From: Urechidicola croceus
Lineage (GTDB): Bacteria > Bacteroidota > Bacteroidia > Flavobacteriales > Flavobacteriaceae
Reading direction: 5' to 3'
DNA: 64,000 nt
Assembly (NCBI RefSeq): GCF_001761325.1
Contig: NZ_CP017478.1
Location: 2,997,501 to 3,061,500, forward strand
Shown piece by piece: positions 9,413 through 63,851 of the stretch. The notes beneath the pieces are model-generated. The model searched no databases, was not told the origin of the DNA, and saw only the letters and a program-made list of their open reading frames with translations. The translations under genes were made by a program, and so were the position numbers. Within the stretch, counting starts at the first letter, position 1. Every line of letters begins with the position of its first letter.

Positions 9413-9470
9413 TAATTTTTTATTTTTTAAAAAAGTGTTGAATTTATCTTAAAAACATAAAAATTATTGG

Positions 9471-9478
9471 TAATTTTG
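9471..9478 (+). promoter_or_regulatory. Probable -7 element of the ilv leader transcript
   Basis: TAATTTTG matches TAnnTTTG. Transcription would begin around 9484, only a few bases before the leader-peptide ATG at 9488, so the leader transcript would be nearly leaderless. No TTG lies at the standard -33 spacing. Confidence 0.45.
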
Positions 9479-9487
9479 CTTCATTAA

Positions 9488-9553
9488 ATGAAGAAAATCA
9501 ATTTAAATATTATTTCTATTGTCATTAACTATGTAATTCTAATTACAAAGTAG
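9488..9553 (+). CDS. ilv leader peptide
   Basis: A 21-codon reading frame from ATG 9488 to TAG 9551-9553. It encodes 7 Ile, 2 Val and 2 Leu, so 11 of 21 residues are branched-chain amino acids. They are clustered as Ile-Val-Ile (codons 11-13) and Val-Ile-Leu-Ile (codons 16-19). It lies directly before competing RNA hairpins, including an intrinsic terminator, and upstream of ilvD. This is the classical organisation of a transcription-attenuation leader: the ribosome stalls at these codons when charged branched-chain tRNAs are scarce. The peptide itself is not expected to have another role. Confidence 0.8.
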   Translation: MKKINLNIISIVINYVILITK

Positions 9554-9559
9554 CAATAG
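9516..9559 (+). promoter_or_regulatory. Leader hairpin overlapping the leader-peptide codons
   Basis: An imperfect stem in the leader RNA. CTATTG (9516-9521) pairs with CAATAG (9554-9559). Inside it ACTATGTAATT (9528-9538) pairs with AATTACAAAGT (9541-9551) with one A-A mismatch. It covers the Val-Ile-Leu-Ile codons, so a ribosome stalled there would open it and release the bases from 9554 onward. Confidence 0.6.
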
Positions 9560-9597
9560 GAATGTTATAATTTTGCATAAAAATTTATCACCTTCCT
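9558..9597 (+). promoter_or_regulatory. Candidate antiterminator of the ilv attenuator
   Basis: Bases 9558-9570 pair with 9585-9597. AGGAA pairs with TTCCT, then after one mismatch two further pairs, another mismatch and four A-T pairs, around a 14-base loop. This uses the 5' arm of the terminator at 9590-9598 and shares 9558-9559 with the leader hairpin, so the three structures are mutually exclusive in the order an attenuator needs. Confidence 0.55.
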
Positions 9598-9617
9598 TGA
9601 AAAAGGAAGGTTTTTTT
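9590..9617 (+). terminator. Intrinsic terminator of the ilv attenuator
   Basis: ACCTTCCTT (9590-9598) pairs perfectly with AAGGAAGGT (9603-9611) around a GAAA loop and runs into seven T residues (9611-9617). It lies 37 bases after the leader-peptide stop and about 200 bases before ilvD. Confidence 0.85.
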
Positions 9618-9676
9618 GTAAATAAAATAAAAATATTTGTTTAGGTGTTGAAGTGATTGGTGTAAAAATAAAATAG

Positions 9677-9716
9677 TTAATAATCTGATATTCAGATTAT
9701 TAAATAGATTTTTTTT
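9677..9716 (+). promoter_or_regulatory. Perfect 12-base inverted repeat with T run before ilvD
   Basis: TTAATAATCTGA (9677-9688) and its exact complement TCAGATTATTAA (9692-9703) flank three bases. Eight T residues follow from 9709. It may be a second, AT-rich terminator behind the attenuator or a protein-binding operator; the sequence does not decide. Confidence 0.5.
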
Positions 9717-9771
9717 GTATTAAATATTGTAAATAAAAAATAATAGTACTAGTGATTAAATAAGTCCAAAG

Positions 9772-9779
9772 TATCTTTG
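9772..9779 (+). promoter_or_regulatory. Possible second promoter (-7 element) for ilvD
   Basis: TATCTTTG is an exact TAnnTTTG match about 35 bases before the ilvD ATG and downstream of the attenuator. Transcripts from here would escape attenuation. There is no TTG at -33 spacing. Confidence 0.42.
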
Positions 9780-9814
9780 ATATCAAATGCACTAAAATTT
9801 AGAATAACTAACTG

Positions 9815-11494
9815 ATGAAATTAAATAAACATAGTAGTCGATTAACTCAAGATGAGTCTCAACCAGCATCGCAAGCGATGTTATATGCGGTAGGATTGAC
9901 AGATGAAGATATGAGCAAAGCCCAAGTTGGAATTGCAAGTACGGGTTATGATGGTAATCCATGTAATATGCACTTAAACAATTTGGCTGCAGAAGTCAAG
10001 GTGGAAACAAAAATTGCAGGTTTAGTTGGTTTAGGATTCAATACAATTGGAGTTTCAGATGGTATTTCTATGGGGACTTCTGGTATGAATTATTCATTAG
10101 CTTCTAGGGATATAATTGCCGATTCTATTGAAACTGTAATGAACGCTCAAAGTTATGATGCATTAGTTGCTGTTGTTGGTTGCGATAAAAATATGCCTGG
10201 AGCAGTAATTGCAATGTTGCGTTTAAATCGTCCATCAATTATGATGTATGGAGGTACAATTGCATCGGGAAATTATAAAGGAAAAAAATTAAATATCGTT
10301 TCTGCTTTTGAGGCTTTAGGACAAAAAGTTGCAGGAGAAATAGAAGAAGACGAATATAGAGAAATTATAAAAAGAGCAATTCCAGGAGCAGGTGCTTGTG
10401 GTGGAATGTACACAGCAAATACTATGGCTTCTGCTATAGAATGCATGGGTTTTGCATTACCTTATAACTCATCTATTCCTGCAGAGAATCCTAATAAATT
10501 ATCAGAAGCAGAAAGAACTGCTTTAGCAATTAAAAACTTATTAGAACTAGATTTAAAACCATTAGATATTATTTCTAAAAAATCTTTGGAAAATGCAATT
10601 GCATTAGTAAATGCATTGGGAGGTTCTACCAACGCAGTTTTACACTTTTTAGCAATTGCACATGCTGCAGATATTGAATTTACGTTAGAAGATTTTCAAA
10701 AAGTAAGTGATAGAACCCCATTAATTGCAGATTTAAAACCATCTGGAAAATACTTAATGGAAGATGTTCATGGAGTTGGTGGTACACCAGCAATCATGAA
10801 ATATTTATTAGATAATGGGTATTTACATGGAGATTGTTTAACAGTTACAGGAAAAACATTAGCAGAGAACTTAGCAAATGTTGAAGCAATGGAATTTGAA
10901 GATCAAGATGTAATTTATCCAAAAGATAAAGCATTAAAATCATCAGGAAATATTCAGATAATTTACGGAAACCTTGCTGCGGAAGGAGCGGTTGCAAAAA
11001 TTTCTGGAAATGAAGGATTGCTTTTTGAAGGAAAAGCGGTGGTTTATGATGGAGAACAAGCTGCGAATGAAGGAATTTCAAACGGAGAAGTAGAAAGAGG
11101 AGATGTAGTCGTTATTAGATATGTAGGGCCTAAAGGAGGGCCGGGAATGCCAGAAATGTTAAAGCCGACTTCATTGATTATGGGAGCAGGTTTAGGGAAA
11201 TCTGTAGCATTGATTACAGACGGTCGTTTTTCTGGAGGAACACATGGTTTTGTGGTTGGACATATTACACCAGAAGCACAATCTGGTGGAGCAATTGGAC
11301 TTCTTGAAACAGGAGATAAAATAAGAATAAGTGCTGAAGACAATTCAATAAACGTTCTAATTTCTGATGAAGAATTAGCAGCAAGAAAATCAAAATGGGT
11401 TGCACCAGCATTAAAGCATAAAAAAGGGATTTTATACAAATACGCAAATACAGTAGCTTCGGCATCTGAAGGTTGTGTAACAGATAAATTTTAA
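9815..11494 (+). CDS. ilvD: Dihydroxy-acid dehydratase
   Basis: Iron-sulfur enzyme that dehydrates 2,3-dihydroxy-isovalerate and 2,3-dihydroxy-3-methylvalerate to the keto acids that precede valine and isoleucine. The 559-residue length is typical. Three cysteines stand where the cluster ligands are expected: Cys50 (NPCN), Cys123 (VGCDKN) and Cys195 (GACGGMYT). It is the first structural gene behind the attenuator and is followed 5 bases later by ilvB, so ilvD, ilvB, ilvN and ilvC form one operon ended by the terminator at 15251. Confidence 0.96.
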
Positions 11495-11499
11495 TACAA

Positions 11500-13191
11500 A
11501 TGAGTACAAAAATAACAGGAGCAGAAGCCGTAATTAAGTGTCTTTTAGAAGAAGGTGCTGATTTAGTTTATGGTTATCCAGGAGGTGCAATAATGCCAAT
11601 TTATGATGAGTTGTATAAATATCAAGATAAATTACAACATGTATTAACGCGTCACGAGCAAGGTGCAACACATTCGGCACAAGGGTTTGCACGTGCAACA
11701 GGAAAAGTAGGTGTTGCTATGGCAACTTCAGGTCCTGGAGCAACAAATTTAATTACAGGTATTGCAGATGCGCAAATTGACTCTACACCAATGGTGTGTA
11801 TTACAGGTCAAGTTGCAACTCATTTATTGGGTTCTGATGCATTCCAAGAAACTGATATTGTAGGAATTTCTACGCCAGTAACAAAATGGAATTTCCAAAT
11901 AACTGATGCCGCTGAAATTCCAGCAATTATGGCAAAAGCATTTTATATTGCTCGTTCTGGACGTCCAGGGCCAGTTTTAATTGATATTACCAAAGATGCT
12001 CAATTAGCAGAATTAGATTATAAGTATAAAAAGTGTACTTCTATACGAAGTTACAGACCTATTCCTTTAATTGATTCAAGCAAAGTTGAGCAGGCTGCTG
12101 AAGTAATAAATAATGCTAAAAAACCAATGATTGTTTTCGGACAAGGAATTATTCTTGGTGAAGCAGAAGCAGAGTTAAAAGCATTTGTAGAAAAATCAGG
12201 AATTCCTGCTGCATGGACAATTTTAGGGTTGTCTGCAATGCCTACAAATCATCCTTTAAATGTAGGTATGGTAGGAATGCACGGTAATTATGGTCCAAAT
12301 GTTTTGACTAATGAGTGTGATGTATTGATTGCGCTTGGAATGCGTTTTGATGATCGTGTTACTGGAAATTTAGCAACATATGCTAAGCAAGCCAAAATTA
12401 TTCACTTTGAAATTGATCCGGCAGAGGTTGATAAGAATGTAATGACTGATGTTGCAGTTTTAGGTAATGTGAAAGATACATTGGCTCAAATTTTACCATT
12501 AATAAATAAAAATTCACACGAATCTTGGCATAATGAATTTAAGAAAAAGCACGAGTTAGAATTTGAAAAAGTAATAAATGACGATTTAAACCCACAGAAA
12601 GAAGGATTGACAATGGCTGAGGTTTTAGAACAAATAAATATTGCTTCTAATGATGATGCAGTAATTGTTTCTGATGTTGGTCAGCATCAAATGTTTGCAT
12701 GTCGCTATGCTAAATTTACACAAACCAAAAGTAATATTACTTCGGGTGGTTTAGGAACAATGGGGTTTGCACTTCCGGCCGCAATTGGAGCAAAAATGGG
12801 AGTTCCGAATCGTGAAGTTGTTGCAATTATTGGTGATGGAGGATATCAAATGACCATTCAAGAATTGGGAACAATTTTTCAAACTAAAGTTCCTGTGAAA
12901 ATTGTTGTGCTTAACAATGATTATCTAGGAATGGTTCGTCAATGGCAACAATTATTTTTTGATAAGAGATATGCGTCGACTGAAATGATAAATCCAGATT
13001 TTGTAGCAATTGCAAAAGGATATCACATTGATGCAAAGCGCGTTTCTAAGCGTGAAGATTTAGCAAGTGCAGTTCAAGAAATGATGGATTCGAAAGATGC
13101 ATATTTCTTAGAAGTATGCGTTGAAAAAGAACATAATGTATTTCCGATGATACCTACAGGAGCATCGGTTTCTGATATGAGATTAAGTTAA
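11500..13191 (+). CDS. ilvB: Acetolactate synthase large (catalytic) subunit
   Basis: Thiamine-diphosphate enzyme that makes acetolactate and acetohydroxybutyrate, the first shared step of valine, leucine and isoleucine synthesis. The 563 residues have the three-domain layout of the family. Catalytic Glu53 is in RHEQGA, and the TPP/Mg motif begins GDGGYQMTIQEL and ends at VVLNND near residues 445-475. FAD-domain motifs such as GLGTMGFALPAAIGAK are intact. The regulatory subunit gene ilvN follows 5 bases downstream. Confidence 0.95.
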   Translation: MSTKITGAEAVIKCLLEEGADLVYGYPGGAIMPIYDELYKYQDKLQHVLTRHEQGATHSAQGFARATGKVGVAMATSGPGATNLITGIADAQIDSTPMVCITGQVATHLLGSDAFQETDIVGISTPVTKWNFQITDAAEIPAIMAKAFYIARSGRPGPVLIDITKDAQLAELDYKYKKCTSIRSYRPIPLIDSSKVEQAAEVINNAKKPMIVFGQGIILGEAEAELKAFVEKSGIPAAWTILGLSAMPTNHPLNVGMVGMHGNYGPNVLTNECDVLIALGMRFDDRVTGNLATYAKQAKIIHFEIDPAEVDKNVMTDVAVLGNVKDTLAQILPLINKNSHESWHNEFKKKHELEFEKVINDDLNPQKEGLTMAEVLEQINIASNDDAVIVSDVGQHQMFACRYAKFTQTKSNITSGGLGTMGFALPAAIGAKMGVPNREVVAIIGDGGYQMTIQELGTIFQTKVPVKIVVLNNDYLGMVRQWQQLFFDKRYASTEMINPDFVAIAKGYHIDAKRVSKREDLASAVQEMMDSKDAYFLEVCVEKEHNVFPMIPTGASVSDMRLS

Positions 13192-13196
13192 GAAAA

Positions 13197-13715
13197 ATGG
13201 AGAATAAAAAATTTACAATATCTGTTTATTCCGAAAATAATATCGGATTGTTAAATAGAATTTCGGCAATATTTTTAAAAAGACATATCAATATTGAAAG
13301 CCTGACGGTTTCAGAATCTGAAATTGAAAATGTTTCTCGTTTTATAATTGTTGTAAGAATTACGGAATCATCAGTTAAAAAATTAGTTGGGCAAATAGAA
13401 AAGCAAATAGAAGTTATCAAGGCTTTTTATCATACTAACGAAGAAACAATTTATCGCGAATCGGCTTTATTTAAAATTGCATCTGATTTGTTATTTGATG
13501 AAAGACAAATTCAGAATATAATCAAAGAGAGTAATTCTGAAATAGTAACTGTAGCACGTGATTTCTTTGTAATATCCAAATCTGGAAGACGTTCAGAAAT
13601 ATTAGATGTTTACAATAAATTAAAGCCTTATGGAATTAAACAATTTGTTCGTTCTGGAAGGATTTCTGTTTCAAAAGATGAAATGGCAATTTCAAAAATA
13701 TTAAAAGATTACTAA
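13197..13715 (+). CDS. ilvN: Acetolactate synthase small (regulatory) subunit
   Basis: Regulatory partner of IlvB that confers valine sensitivity and raises activity. The N-terminal ACT domain (about residues 4-80) starts ISVYSENNIGLLNRISAIF and includes the IESLTVSESE segment. The C-terminal domain follows to residue 172. The length is close to that of the usual 160-175 residue bacterial subunits. Tight spacing with ilvB supports co-translation. Confidence 0.92.
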   Translation: MENKKFTISVYSENNIGLLNRISAIFLKRHINIESLTVSESEIENVSRFIIVVRITESSVKKLVGQIEKQIEVIKAFYHTNEETIYRESALFKIASDLLFDERQIQNIIKESNSEIVTVARDFFVISKSGRRSEILDVYNKLKPYGIKQFVRSGRISVSKDEMAISKILKDY

Positions 13716-13746
13716 TAAAATAACACACAAATAAAAAAATATAAAA

Positions 13747-15222
13747 ATGGCAAATTATTTTAACACACTTTCATTAAGAGAAAAATTAGCACAATTAGGT
13801 GTATGTGAGTTTATGGATCGCTCAGAATTTTCTGAAGGTGTAAAAGCATTAGCAGGAAAGAAAATTGTAATTGTAGGTTGCGGTGCTCAAGGATTGAATC
13901 AAGGTTTAAATATGCGTGATTCGGGATTGGACATTTCATATGCATTGCGTGCAGGAGCAATTAAAGAAAAAAGACAGTCTTTTTTAAATGCGTCTGAAAA
14001 TGGTTTCAACGTTGGAACGTATGAAGAATTAATTCCTACTGCTGATTTAGTGAGTAATTTAACACCAGATAAGCAACACACTGCTGTTGTATCTGCTGTA
14101 ATGCCATTAATGAAAAAAGGAGCAACATTATCTTATTCTCATGGTTTTAATATTGTGGAAGAAGGAATGCAAATCCGTAAAGATATAACAGTGATTATGT
14201 GTGCGCCAAAATGTCCAGGATCTGAAGTTCGTGAAGAATACAAGAGAGGATTTGGAGTTCCTACATTAATTGCAGTACATCCTGAAAATGATCCAGAAGG
14301 AAAAGGATTTGAACAAGCAAAAGCATATGCTGCTGCAACTGGAGGTGATAGAGCAGGGGTTTTAAATTCTTCTTTTGTTGCTGAAGTAAAATCAGATTTA
14401 ATGGGTGAGCAAACAATTCTTTGTGGATTGTTGCAAACAGGTTCTATTCTTTGTTTTGACAAGATGGTTGAAAAAGGTATCGATAAAGGATATGCTTCTA
14501 AATTAATTCAATATGGATGGGAAACTATCACAGAAGCATTGAAATATGGTGGAATCACAAATATGATGGATCGTTTATCGAATCCAGCAAAAATTAAGGC
14601 TTTTGAATTATCAGAAGAATTAAAAGATATCATGCGTCCATTATTCCAAAAGCATATGGATGATATCATAAGTGGTCATTTTTCTAAAACGATGATGGAA
14701 GATTGGGCAAATGATGATAAAAATTTATTGGGATGGAGAGCAGCAACTGGTGAAACTGCATTTGAAAAAACACCTGCAGGAGATGTTGAAATTTCCGAGC
14801 AAGAATATTTTGATAATGGAGTGTTGATGGTTGCCATGGTAAAATCTGGAGTTGAGTTGGCTTTCGAAGCTATGACAGATTCTGGAATCATTGAAGAGTC
14901 TGCATATTACGAGTCTTTACATGAAACGCCATTAATTGCTAATACAATTGCACGAAAGAAATTATTTGAAATGAACCGTGTAATTTCTGATACCGCTGAG
15001 TATGGATGTTATTTATTTGATCACGCTTGTAAGCCTTTATTAGCAGATTTCATGAAGAAAGTAGATACTGATATTATCGGAACTAAATATGGCTCAAATA
15101 CTGATAATGGTGTTGATAACAAGCAATTAATTGAAGTGAATGCTGCAATTCGTGAGCACCTTATTGAAGAAGTCGGTGCAGAATTACGTGAGGCAATGAC
15201 CGATATGAAAAAAATCGTTTAA
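13747..15222 (+). CDS. ilvC: Ketol-acid reductoisomerase, class II (long form)
   Basis: Converts acetolactate or acetohydroxybutyrate to the dihydroxy acids by Mg-dependent alkyl migration and NADPH reduction. At 491 residues it is the long class II type known from enterobacteria and plants, with a duplicated helical domain, rather than the roughly 330-residue class I enzyme. The dinucleotide-binding motif [10 protein letters not shown] is near residues 44-53. It is the last gene of the ilvDBNC operon, 31 bases after ilvN, and is followed by a strong terminator. Confidence 0.95.
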
Positions 15223-15247
15223 TTAAGTTTAAACAATTCAATATATC

Positions 15248-15279
15248 AAAGGGTGTTGCTTTCGCAACACCCTTTTTTT
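15248..15279 (+). terminator. Strong terminator after ilvC
   Basis: GGGTGTTGC (15251-15259) pairs with GCAACACCC (15264-15272) around TTTC, flanked by AAA and seven T residues. It ends the ilvDBNC operon and separates it from the thioesterase and ilvA. Confidence 0.92.
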
Positions 15280-15330
15280 GTTGATTTTATGGAGTTTTTA
15301 TGAGTAGATATAATTTTAAAAGATTAAATT

Positions 15331-16092
15331 ATGGAAAACTATTTTGAAAAAGAATTTGAGTTAAGATATTTCGAAATGAATAAATATGGTGAGGCTTCAC
15401 CTACTACAATCCTTACATTGTTAGAAGAAACTGCAGCAGACCATTGTTATTCGATTGATTATAGTTTGTATAATCTTATTGAACAAAAGGTAGGTTGGGT
15501 ATTGATATCTGGCGCGATGGAAATGGAGCGTTATCCTACATATAAAGAAAAGATTATTATCCGTACATGGCTTTCAAAATATTCTACAATTAAAGGGTTT
15601 CGAGAAAACATTATTTATGATGAAAACTATAATGTGATAGGGAGATCAAGAGGTTTGTGGGTGTTTTTTGATATTGAACGAAGAAGGCCTATTCAGATTT
15701 TTGATGATATAAAGAAAAAGTGGTCTTATTGTGTAGAGGAGAGTTTGAATCAAGATATTACGAAAAAAATTCCAGAAGTAAATAATGCTGATTACACATT
15801 AGAATATAATGTAAATAGATACGATACTGATATGAATAAACATGTAAATAACATTAGATATTTACAATGGCTAATGGAGACAATTCCAGATGAAATACTA
15901 GATAATTATTACTTACATTCTATTGATGGTAGATTTATTTCTGAGGCTAATTACGGAGATACAATTATATCTTTAACTGAAAATAATATAGATGACAATT
16001 CATTTTCACATACAGTAAAAGTGGATCAAAAAAGTACTGTTTGTGCAACTGCTACAACACAATGGCGTAAAAAGTACATTAATCAAGTGTAA
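15331..16092 (+). CDS. Acyl-ACP thioesterase (double hotdog)
   Basis: Expected to hydrolyse acyl-acyl carrier protein to free fatty acid, as in the FatA-like bacterial family. The 253 residues contain two hotdog halves. The first has FELRYFEMNKYGEASP and the helix ILTLLEETAADH. The second has YDTDMNKHVNNIRYLQW (about residues 163-180), whose Asn/His residues are the expected catalytic region. It lies between the ilvC terminator and ilvA on the same strand. The placement next to branched-chain genes could hint at a role in branched acyl chains, but that is inference. Confidence 0.86.
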   Translation: MENYFEKEFELRYFEMNKYGEASPTTILTLLEETAADHCYSIDYSLYNLIEQKVGWVLISGAMEMERYPTYKEKIIIRTWLSKYSTIKGFRENIIYDENYNVIGRSRGLWVFFDIERRRPIQIFDDIKKKWSYCVEESLNQDITKKIPEVNNADYTLEYNVNRYDTDMNKHVNNIRYLQWLMETIPDEILDNYYLHSIDGRFISEANYGDTIISLTENNIDDNSFSHTVKVDQKSTVCATATTQWRKKYINQV

Positions 16093-16182
16093 AATTTAAC
16101 AAATACAGTTTTGTAATTCAATTAATGAATGTCTGATTTGCAGAAAATACTTTCGTAATTTTACAATCCAAAATATGATTAA

Positions 16183-17442
16183 ATGACCGATTCTAAAAAT
16201 ATAGTTTCGTTAGACTTAATAAAGAAGGCACAAGAAAACATTAAGGGTGTTGTAAAGTCAACTCCTTTATTATTTGTAAAAACGTTGTCCGAGAAGTATC
16301 AATCAAATATTTATTTTAAAAGAGAAGACTTGCAAGTTGTTCGCTCTTACAAGATTAGAGGTGCTTATAATAAAATAAGTAATCTATCAAATGAAGAGTT
16401 GAAAAAGGGTATCGTATGTGCAAGTGCAGGAAATCATGCGCAAGGAGTTGCCTTTGCTTGTAGTAAGTTGAATGTAAAAGGCGTTATTTTTATGCCAATT
16501 ACAACACCTCAGCAAAAAATAAGTCAAGTATATATGTTTGGTGGTGATTTGGTTGAAATTCGATTGATTGGAGATACTTATGATGAAAGTTATTATGCAG
16601 CCAAAGAATATTGTGAAACATATTCTAAAACATTTGTACATCCGTTTGAAGATATGGATGTGATTGCTGGTCAAGGAACAGTTGGGCTTGAAATTTTAGA
16701 AAAAGCCACTGAGAAAATTGATTATTTGATTTTACCAATTGGTGGAGGAGGTTTGGCCTCAGGAGTTGGTAGTGTTTTTAAACTACTAAGCCCTGAAACT
16801 AAAATTATTGGTGTTGAACCAGAGGGAGCGCCATCTTTAACAGTTTCTTTAAAAAAAGGAGTAAATACAGAATTAGTAAATATCGATAAGTTCGTTGATG
16901 GTGCTGCAGTGAAGAAAATGGGTGATATGACATTCGGATTTTGTAAAGAGGTCTTAAATGATGTTAAAACGATAAACGAAGGTCTGATTTGTTCTACTAT
17001 ATTAAAAGTTTATAATGAAAATGCTTTGGTTGTTGAACCTGCAGGAGCGTTGAGTATCGCTGCTTTAGAATCTTTAAAAAGCGAGATTAAAGGTAAGAAT
17101 GTTGTTTGTGTAGTGAGTGGTGGAAATAATGATATCACCCGAATGGAAGAGATGAAAGAAAGAGCATTGCTTTACGAAGGTTTGAAACATTATTTTTTAG
17201 TAAAGTTTCCGCAGCGTCCAGGAGCGCTGAAAGAGTTTGTAAATCAAGTTTTAGGAGAGAATGATGATATTGCACATTTTGAATATACCAAGAAAAATCA
17301 GCGATCTACTTCAACAGCAATGGTCGGAATTGAACTGAAAAATAAGGAAGATTTCAAACCATTATTGGCTCGAATGAAAGAGTTTGGTTTTTTAGCAGAT
17401 TATTTGAATGATAATCAGCAGTTGTTTGAGTTTATTACATAA
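16183..17442 (+). CDS. ilvA: Threonine dehydratase (biosynthetic, one regulatory domain)
   Basis: PLP enzyme that deaminates threonine to 2-oxobutyrate, the entry step to isoleucine. Lys57 in RSYKIRGAYN binds PLP, SAGNHAQG follows, and the glycine-rich PLP loop is LPIGGGGLASG. At 419 residues, with a single ACT-like regulatory segment starting FLVKFPQRPGALKEF near residue 345, it resembles the shorter biosynthetic enzymes rather than the roughly 515-residue E. coli form with two regulatory repeats. It belongs functionally with the ilv operon but is separated from it by the 15251 terminator and the thioesterase gene. Confidence 0.93.
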   Translation: MTDSKNIVSLDLIKKAQENIKGVVKSTPLLFVKTLSEKYQSNIYFKREDLQVVRSYKIRGAYNKISNLSNEELKKGIVCASAGNHAQGVAFACSKLNVKGVIFMPITTPQQKISQVYMFGGDLVEIRLIGDTYDESYYAAKEYCETYSKTFVHPFEDMDVIAGQGTVGLEILEKATEKIDYLILPIGGGGLASGVGSVFKLLSPETKIIGVEPEGAPSLTVSLKKGVNTELVNIDKFVDGAAVKKMGDMTFGFCKEVLNDVKTINEGLICSTILKVYNENALVVEPAGALSIAALESLKSEIKGKNVVCVVSGGNNDITRMEEMKERALLYEGLKHYFLVKFPQRPGALKEFVNQVLGENDDIAHFEYTKKNQRSTSTAMVGIELKNKEDFKPLLARMKEFGFLADYLNDNQQLFEFIT

Positions 17443-63497: not shown

Positions 63498-63767
63498 TTA
63501 TTTTCTTAATCCTAATTCTTTCACTATTGCACGGTATCTTAAGATGTCTTTTTTCATTAGATAATCTAATAAACTTCTTCTTTTACCTACTAATTTCACC
63601 AAAGAACGCTCAGTATTATAATCTTTACGATTGTTTTTTAAGTGTCCAGTTAAATGATTAATTCGGTGTGTGAATAATGCGATTTGTCCTTCTGCAGAAC
63701 CTGTGTTTGTTGCAGTTTCTCCGTGTTTTGCGAAAATTTCTGCTTTTACTTCTTTAGTTAAATACAT
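63498..63767 (-). CDS. rpsO: Ribosomal protein S15
   Basis: Small-subunit protein that binds 16S rRNA and nucleates assembly of the central domain. The 89-residue length is standard, and the conserved stretches GSAEGQIALFTHRINHLTGHLK and LVGKRRSLLDYLMKKD are present. A full -33/-7 promoter lies 55 bases upstream, and pnp is downstream. Confidence 0.96.
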   Translation of the reverse strand: MYLTKEVKAEIFAKHGETATNTGSAEGQIALFTHRINHLTGHLKNNRKDYNTERSLVKLVGKRRSLLDYLMKKDILRYRAIVKELGLRK

Positions 63768-63821
63768 GCTAACATTAATTTTTAATAATTTTTATGTATG
63801 TGATTACTTCGAATCAAGCTG

Positions 63822-63851
63822 CAAAGATAAAATTATTATTCTGAATGGCAA
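63822..63851 (-). promoter_or_regulatory. Promoter of rpsO
   Basis: Reverse-strand TTG (63849-63851), 19-base spacer, TATCTTTG (63822-63829): an exact match to the Bacteroidota -33/-7 promoter. Start near 63816 would leave about 50 bases of leader before the rpsO ATG. Confidence 0.7.

Follow-up and report, generated by a model that had tools for sequence, protein, structure and literature searches.

A probable nearly leaderless transcription attenuator ahead of ilvD in Urechidicola croceus and its relatives in the Flavobacteriaceae

The attenuators of the enterobacterial ilvGMEDA and ilvBN operons join a leader frame with Ile, Val and Leu codons to the logic of alternative hairpins termed 1:2, 2:3 and 3:4. 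The leader described here, ahead of ilvD in Urechidicola croceus, resembles them in both respects, but it belongs to another phylum, and the enterobacterial leaders have a normal 5′ untranslated region with a ribosome binding site. Among Bacteroidetes, the Bacteroid-trp RNA is a cis element found before trp genes, with an attenuator role. It concerns another operon, and its family (RF01692; PMC2864571) has no match in the window, as we call the whole 64,000-nucleotide stretch of DNA that was analyzed. Short frames in long 5′ untranslated regions of Bacteroides thetaiotaomicron, BT_4401 among others, share the phylum and the position of the frame and were described as "reminiscent" of attenuating leader peptides; in the passages of PMC7366714 that concern them this is a mere possibility, with no amino acid operon, structures or comparison given.

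The ilvBNC attenuator of Corynebacterium glutamicum (leader MTIIRLVVVTARRLP), as described in PMC11857589, shares with the ilvD leader a branched-chain leader peptide and an anti-antiterminator, antiterminator and terminator before an operon for branched-chain amino acids. Its transcript starts one nucleotide from the leader ATG, so nearly leaderless attenuator leaders are known elsewhere, and it likewise has further promoters in the operon. It differs in coming from an actinobacterium, with other sequences, in preceding ilvB rather than ilvD, and in having been tested by mutation, whereas the ilvD leader is known here by computation. The mycobacterial ilvB1NC attenuator, in the account of PMC13236596, shares an upstream frame rich in branched-chain residues, with LVVI control codons, and an antiterminator opposed to a terminator, but it comes from another phylum and has another gene order. 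According to a 2010 survey, leader-peptide attenuation had, to its authors' knowledge, been shown only in Proteobacteria and Actinobacteria, to which Firmicutes were added (PMC2965389); the survey of Lopatovskaya et al. 2010, cited in PMC4833913, may list cases in Bacteroidetes. Our literature search, mainly of open-access papers, found no description of an ilv attenuator in this phylum. The attenuation mechanism is classical and known; the family described below is a variant of it by virtue of being nearly leaderless, often doubled and re-coded.

The ilvD leader and its promoter

The nearest relatives of its ilvD place the host in the Flavobacteriaceae. The leader and the genes behind it comprise the following features.

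9471-9478 (+): P1, -7 element TAATTTTG of the Bacteroidota form TAnnTTTG, read directly
9488-9553 (+): leader peptide frame, 21 codons and TAG, 11 Ile/Val/Leu codons, read directly
9507-9568 (+): hairpin 1:2, anti-antiterminator or pause hairpin, arms 9507-9522 and 9553-9568, inner hairpin 9528-9551, by folding and own-partner pairing
9558-9597 (+): hairpin 2:3, antiterminator, 9558-9574 with 9581-9597, by folding and covariation
9590-9618 (+): intrinsic terminator 3:4, arms 9590-9598 and 9603-9611, then a T-run, read directly and by folding
9772-9779 (+): P2, a further -7 element, TATCTTTG, between terminator and ilvD, with 35 nt separating it from the ilvD ATG
9815-11494 (+): ilvD, dihydroxy-acid dehydratase, first controlled gene (NCBIfam TIGR00110, 721 bits, above cut-off)
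11500-17442 (+): presumed operon genes after ilvD (ilvB, ilvN, ilvC and ilvA by NCBIfam)
11500-13191 (+): ilvB
13197-13715 (+): ilvN
13747-15222 (+): ilvC
15331-16092 (+): 253-aa frame between ilvC and ilvA
16183-17442 (+): ilvA

We consider it highly probable, from sequence comparison, that a translation-coupled transcription attenuator controls ilvD-B-N-C-A, with P2 adding attenuator-independent transcripts in the window's genus. The initial annotation of this DNA had proposed a 21-codon frame with 11 branched-chain codons, and it is present, running from the ATG at 9488 to the stop TAG at 9551-9553 and encoding MKKINLNIISIVINYVILITK. A short frame rich in codons for the products of the pathway is typical of amino acid attenuators, and Ile/Leu/Val account for 11 of the 21 codons here and for 52% over the 108 leaders compared below.

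The -7 element had been placed correctly as well, with TAATTTTG lying 9 nt upstream of the leader ATG. In RNA-seq data for Flavobacterium johnsoniae, a -7 element TAHHTTTG stands 4-5 nt upstream of the transcript start in probable promoters, the leader exceeds 10 nt in 87% of predicted transcripts, and translation is initiated without Shine-Dalgarno sequences (all as reported in PMC6847099). With the same 4-5 nt spacing (PMC6847099), the P1 transcript is predicted to start at 9483-9484. The untranslated RNA that precedes the leader ATG in leaders of the enterobacterial type would be reduced here to the 4-5 nt predicted from the -7 motif. This nearly leaderless start had been called unusual, but it is not peculiar to this genome. 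Among 127 loci of the family, a set that still contains duplicates (L019 and L126 are one place), a motif A..TTTG lies no more than 45 nt from the leader ATG in 102 and ends 8-11 nt before it in 68, so a 5′ untranslated region of 3-7 nt is predicted as a frequent feature of these leaders; in Flavobacterium-like loci the distance is 16-22 nt instead. For a -33 TTG, sought at a single set distance from TAnnTTTGC, the window gave 0 matches against 0.43 expected, and we therefore claim no -33 element.

Alternative hairpins and their covariation

Three hairpins, which overlap one another downstream of the leader frame, are predicted in the window. The terminator described in the initial annotation as perfect, at 9590-9617, holds up: its arms are free of mismatch, 3:4 folds at -12.9 kcal/mol and the T-run extends to about 9618. 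It stands between leader and first gene, an arrangement that is complete in 154 of 166 model hits (see below). Folding recovers the alternative hairpin at exactly the coordinates first proposed, 9558-9597, with an energy of -7.8 kcal/mol; it shares an arm with the terminator, a pairing that is insignificant in the window alone and covaries over 108 elements. The hairpin over the control codons, first placed at 9516-9559, exists but is larger than supposed. It folds at -14.8 kcal/mol (9508-9568), competes with the antiterminator, and its inner hairpin at 9528-9551 covers the last control codons. Relative to dinucleotide shuffles, the complete leader folds with z -6.0, none of 200 being its equal, and 1:2 and 3:4 account for most of this.

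The single sequence is weak in two respects. When 9413-9814 was shuffled, 267 of 2000 shuffles contained a frame opening with ATG, 10-40 codons long, in which 11 or more codons stood for Ile/Leu/Val, and 36 of 2000 did so when these residues also had to make up half of the frame. Chance could account for the antiterminator of the window by itself (p 0.077), which beats only 37% of foreign partners; the window's 1:2 pairing stands at 9% and its 3′ codon hairpin at 6.5% of synonymous shuffles. Given this weakness of frame and antiterminator, comparison with relatives had to decide. As read from sequence, the claim of an attenuator is carried by conservation in relatives, the single sequence being insufficient for it.

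To this end the regions upstream of ilvD were collected, 23 leaders including that of the window were aligned with MAFFT, and a covariance model, R1, was built from the alignment. R1 contains 9 terminator pairs and zero antiterminator pairs; because the elements were picked with it, the set leans towards R1-like sequence. Matches occur in 167 of 397 family genomes (E ≤ 0.01), representing 115 of 237 genera, some of them being gatA or other leaders, and in 31 of 296 genomes of a phylum sample (E ≤ 0.001), 14 of which lie outside the Flavobacteriaceae. Within the genome of the window, R1 matches strongly at the ilvD leader alone (84.7 bits; next best E 0.10). Among the best-scoring 30 R1 loci, a few of which repeat places already in the set, ilvD follows on the same strand in 28, and in some a gene that we take to be a branched-chain aminotransferase lies between element and ilvD. 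The weaker matches examined include elements before ilvA (two loci) and before an ilvN-like gene (one locus). Over 172 loci R1 gave 166 hits, with complete frame and terminator in 154, and 144 of the complete elements, window included, were distinct with at least 5 Ile/Leu/Val codons. The non-redundant set of 108 was reached by dropping 12 of the 166 hits for want of frame or terminator, 7 identical elements, 3 with fewer than 5 Ile/Leu/Val and 36 near-duplicates.

Covariation was assessed by partner permutation, in which a fixed stretch of 24 nt around the leader stop was paired with its own and with all other terminator 5′ arms across the 108 elements. Antiterminator pairing averaged -10.4 kcal/mol with the own partner against -7.4 when shuffled (z -14.4; 0 of 2000 permutations as good), and two controls were null, with z 0.4 for upstream codons and 1.0 for DNA before the ATG. 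Terminator cores are diverse, with CCTTCC, CCTCCC, CTTTCC, CTCCC, CCATTC, CCATCC, CCTTTCTC and CCTGTATC among others, and by terminator class the z was -7.5 for 72 CCTTCC-like elements, -6.4 for 18 mixed ones and -0.5 for 18 of the CCTGTATC type, in which partners are interchangeable because that arm hardly varies. The 1:2 pairing likewise favors its own partner (z -7.3 over 108 elements; -5.2 within the 72 CCTTCC-like ones, control +1.6). It is also stronger than in synonymous-codon shuffles, with mean z -1.12 (SE 0.11) and 81% of elements below 0, as is the hairpin over the last codons, with mean z -1.29 (SE 0.14) and 75% below 0. The pairing GUAAUU/AAUUAC of the window's 3′ codon hairpin corresponds to GUGA..UCAC or GUGAU..AUCAC in many relatives, which is a paired change. 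In the terminator consensus of the 23 aligned sequences, window included, 7 of 9 pairs have changes on both sides. RNAalifold on the MAFFT alignment recovers the terminator only, since alternative pairs are mutually exclusive and their registers differ, which is why partner permutation was used. Together, frame, antiterminator, terminator and 1:2 are all conserved and covary in relatives. The initial annotation had asked for this comparison and would have fallen had relatives shared neither frame nor hairpins.

Within the window's genus, ilvD occurs in 13 of 14 genomes examined, and in 10 of the 13 loci both leader and terminator are complete (L001, L002, L003, L004, L005, L007, L010, L017, L019 and L112). 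The other three are L009, where the front of the frame is absent, L011, where the whole frame is, and L026, which is cut by a contig end. The contig of L026 opens with letters (L026:1-45) that resemble a sequencing transposon adapter, and the first attenuator of L026 is accordingly cut. At two further ilvD loci, L008 and L167, the frame is present and the terminator was not found. Together with L009 and L011, these suggest that attenuation control is dispensable in some lineages.

The second promoter, rival explanations and the proposed mechanism

The genes from ilvD through ilvA would be co-transcribed. In 11 of the 13 genus loci a TAnnTTTG lies about 20-40 nt before ilvD; among the 11 are L009 and L011, whose leaders are incomplete, and the locus cut by a contig end. 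The remaining loci, L002 and L004, have a similar motif further upstream of ilvD. Elsewhere the motif is not general: of 89 long-gap loci just 15 have it in the 70 nt upstream of ilvD (0.029 of shuffles), and so P2 is claimed for the window's genus only. The initial annotation had let the attenuator gate transcription into ilvD. The antiterminator logic behind that statement is supported, but the attenuator need not hold all transcription. Because the P2 motif lies downstream of the terminator, part of ilvD transcription should escape attenuation, and P2 may carry much of it.

The stretch between attenuator and ilvD has other features. Eight aligned genus loci also conserve TGATT..TGTA between terminator and ilvD. 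In one clade TTGAACATCATAAA and TAATTTCG are conserved there, possibly as an operator and a variant promoter, judging from sequence, and the gap from terminator to ilvD is nearly constant at 249-256 nt in many loci. Between attenuator and P2, the window has a 27-nt inverted repeat at 9677-9703, with perfect 12-nt arms (TTAATAATCTGATATTCAGATTATTAA) and then eight T at 9709-9716; the repeat is not conserved in the alignment of the eight genus loci.

If P2 alone served ilvD, the hairpin and T-run might merely end the upstream BT_2802-family gene (stop 9412), and the frame would be a product of chance in AT-rich DNA. The P2 motif in 11 of 13 genus loci and the ease with which shuffling creates a frame with 11 Ile/Leu/Val (267 of 2000) fit such an account, but the comparison with relatives does not. 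A BT_2802-family gene lies upstream in 1 of 63 loci searched, the window itself (L146), whereas the leader precedes ilvD in nearly all of the 30 loci L116-L145 that are among them. The antiterminator arm covaries with the terminator arm, a -7 motif stands 8-11 nt ahead of the frame at 68 of the 127 loci, and in Flavobacterium-type loci the terminator comes just 35-41 nt before ilvD. We regard transcription from P2 alone as very unlikely.

Several structured segments ahead of an amino acid operon could also point to a riboswitch or T-box-type sensor, in which the RNA itself would recognize uncharged tRNA or an amino acid, the frame being incidental. No Rfam family, T-box and riboswitch families included, exceeds its curated cut-off in the leader stretch of the window, where the lowest sub-threshold E is 3.1, and in the relative L117 Phe_leader scores 38.1 bits against a cut-off of 55. 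Moreover, it is the reading frame and its codons that are conserved, while the paired arms are separated by stretches of variable length and sequence, which leaves such a sensor scarcely credible. Other RNA elements were met in these searches, namely an S15-Flavobacteria ribosomal protein leader (RF03161, 56.3 bits) at 63765-63829 (-) of the window and SAM-II riboswitch matches above cut-off at L066:833-892 (-) and L117:1307-1394 (-), upstream of the ilvD leader on the opposite strand.

Codon content bears on the frame itself. Ile/Leu/Val make up 51.6% of codons in the 108 leaders against 23.7% in six window genes, the other two frames of the leaders having 32.7% and 5.9%. In 29 ungapped 20-codon leaders, positions 5, 6, 9, 11 and 13-16 are Ile/Leu/Val in 90-97%, and the residue itself varies. 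Among Val codons, GTC accounts for 45% and GTG for 24%, compared with 4% and 9% in the six window genes. The GTG codons are located in the 3′ hairpin, and the excess of GTC may reflect a rare isoacceptor as sensor. That the leader encodes a functional hydrophobic micropeptide, whose mRNA the structures serve, would suit the conserved MKKQILNIISIIVIVIISQR-type peptide of 29 leaders of one kind, but it is hardly plausible when the residue is free within Ile/Leu/Val, the peptide differs by clade (MQISIIIISVVVVNVIHTSASGML, MKLRNLTIIICVIINSV) and a terminator with a covarying antiterminator comes after the frame.

For the attenuator, we infer the following course of events. RNA polymerase would start at P1, some 4-5 nt upstream of the leader ATG, and a ribosome would load on almost no 5′ untranslated RNA. 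When charged Ile-, Val- and Leu-tRNA are ample, the ribosome at the stop codon would cover segment 2 (to about 9563), 3:4 would fold and transcription would end near 9618. When one charged tRNA is short, the ribosome would stall within the 11 codons, holding segment 1 and leaving segment 2 free; segment 2 would pair with segment 3 while segment 4 has yet to be transcribed, and polymerase would continue into ilvD. If there is no translation, 1:2 and 3:4 would form and transcription would stop, and in the window's genus P2 would supply ilvD transcripts independently of the attenuator. In this way a shortage of Ile, Val or Leu would raise their synthesis.

The stop codon is placed so that a finished ribosome would cover segment 2 and a stalled one would not. 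With an assumed ribosome reach of 12 nt beyond the first A-site base, a ribosome at codon 19 frees 9555 onward and one at the stop codon 9564 onward. The initial annotation had named codons 16-19 as the site of stalling; these would free the antiterminator, but by the same arithmetic, with its assumed 12 nt, so would any of the 11 codons. The hairpin energies complicate this course. Because 2:3 (-7.8) is weaker than 3:4 (-12.9), the complete RNA at equilibrium keeps the terminator even with a stalled ribosome, and the switch must be kinetic, with 2:3 forming first. On the folding model, the energy balance between 2:3 and 3:4 is the weakest point of attenuation in this genome.

Tandem and re-coded leaders in the Flavobacteriaceae

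A second leader and terminator follow the first in 23 of the 127 loci (one place counted twice), including L038, L055, L049, L121, L137, L163, L173 and L211, and also L066. The second copy lies 14-30 nt behind the first in 16 of the 23, with no TTTG between them in 18 of 23, and many second copies have a near-invariant terminator arm of the CCTGTATC type and, at the leader stop or close to it, TTGATACAG. With this layout, transcription begun at the first promoter would need to get through both attenuators. In the window no second attenuator is seen by eye behind the first, and R1 finds a single hit in L001. The two short frames of the Salmonella mgtCBR leader reportedly sense different signals; in the tandem ilv relatives both frames are rich in Ile/Leu/Val. 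According to PMC3641672, mgtCBR too carries tandem attenuators, with a pair of short frames in a single leader.

The same antiterminator and terminator layout occurs with a different codon block. Eleven examined loci have a poly-Asn leader, for example MRNNNNNNNFNNPNF, with eight to ten Asn codons.

L154-L162, L166, L172 (e.g. L154:1201-1308): poly-Asn leader loci, before gatA

A gatA-like gene follows in 10 of the 11, the remaining locus ending too soon; GatA scores 380.5 bits with TIGR00132, under the 481.1 cut-off, the protein being cut at the locus end. In one locus (L219:1600-6338) the gene after gatA fuses GatB to class II (D, K, N) synthetase domains, and frames of 1117-1125 codons with a synthetase match, like the one in L219, were found in 13 of 16 genomes tested, including the window's own. 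A second model, R2, built from the poly-Asn leaders, matches 38 of 397 family genomes (E ≤ 1e-4). A link of the poly-Asn gatA leader to loss of AsnRS or GlnRS was rejected, as both are present in all 16 genomes tested, 12 of them matching R2. When AsnRS and GlnRS are both present, the role of GatCAB is to form asparagine on tRNA. Bdellovibrio, Deinococcus and Thermus are described as having both synthetases as well as GatCAB (PMC4206432). From its sequence, the poly-Asn leader before gatA resembles an attenuator responsive to asparagine formed on tRNA, and such a leader would sense the product. In the window's genome, the 420 nt upstream of gatA contain no poly-Asn leader.

A Thr-rich leader with terminator precedes an aspartokinase gene at one locus, L169. 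In the window's own genome, a Thr/Ile-rich frame MSLNNTNITTTSTITMVVIAMTITTMTL lies at L215:1246, about 255 nt before thrA, the homologue of the L169 aspartokinase; its ATG stands 12 nt behind a AATATTTG motif, and no clear terminator was seen at this place.

We think it likely that the Flavobacteriaceae possess a modular family of nearly leaderless attenuators, in which an exchangeable codon block senses Ile/Val/Leu (ilvD, ilvE-ilvD, ilvN, ilvA), Asn (gatA, gatB-aspS fusion) or Thr (the one aspartokinase locus), often with two in series, both to be passed. Such a family would provide annotations of leader gene, terminator and promoter for many genomes, beyond the Rfam library. It would also make testable how a ribosome loads in time with a 5′ untranslated region of 3-7 nt, what serial attenuators are worth and how one scaffold is re-coded. 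Leader-peptide attenuation would then be frequent in another major lineage, one whose model species, F. johnsoniae, initiates translation without Shine-Dalgarno sequences.
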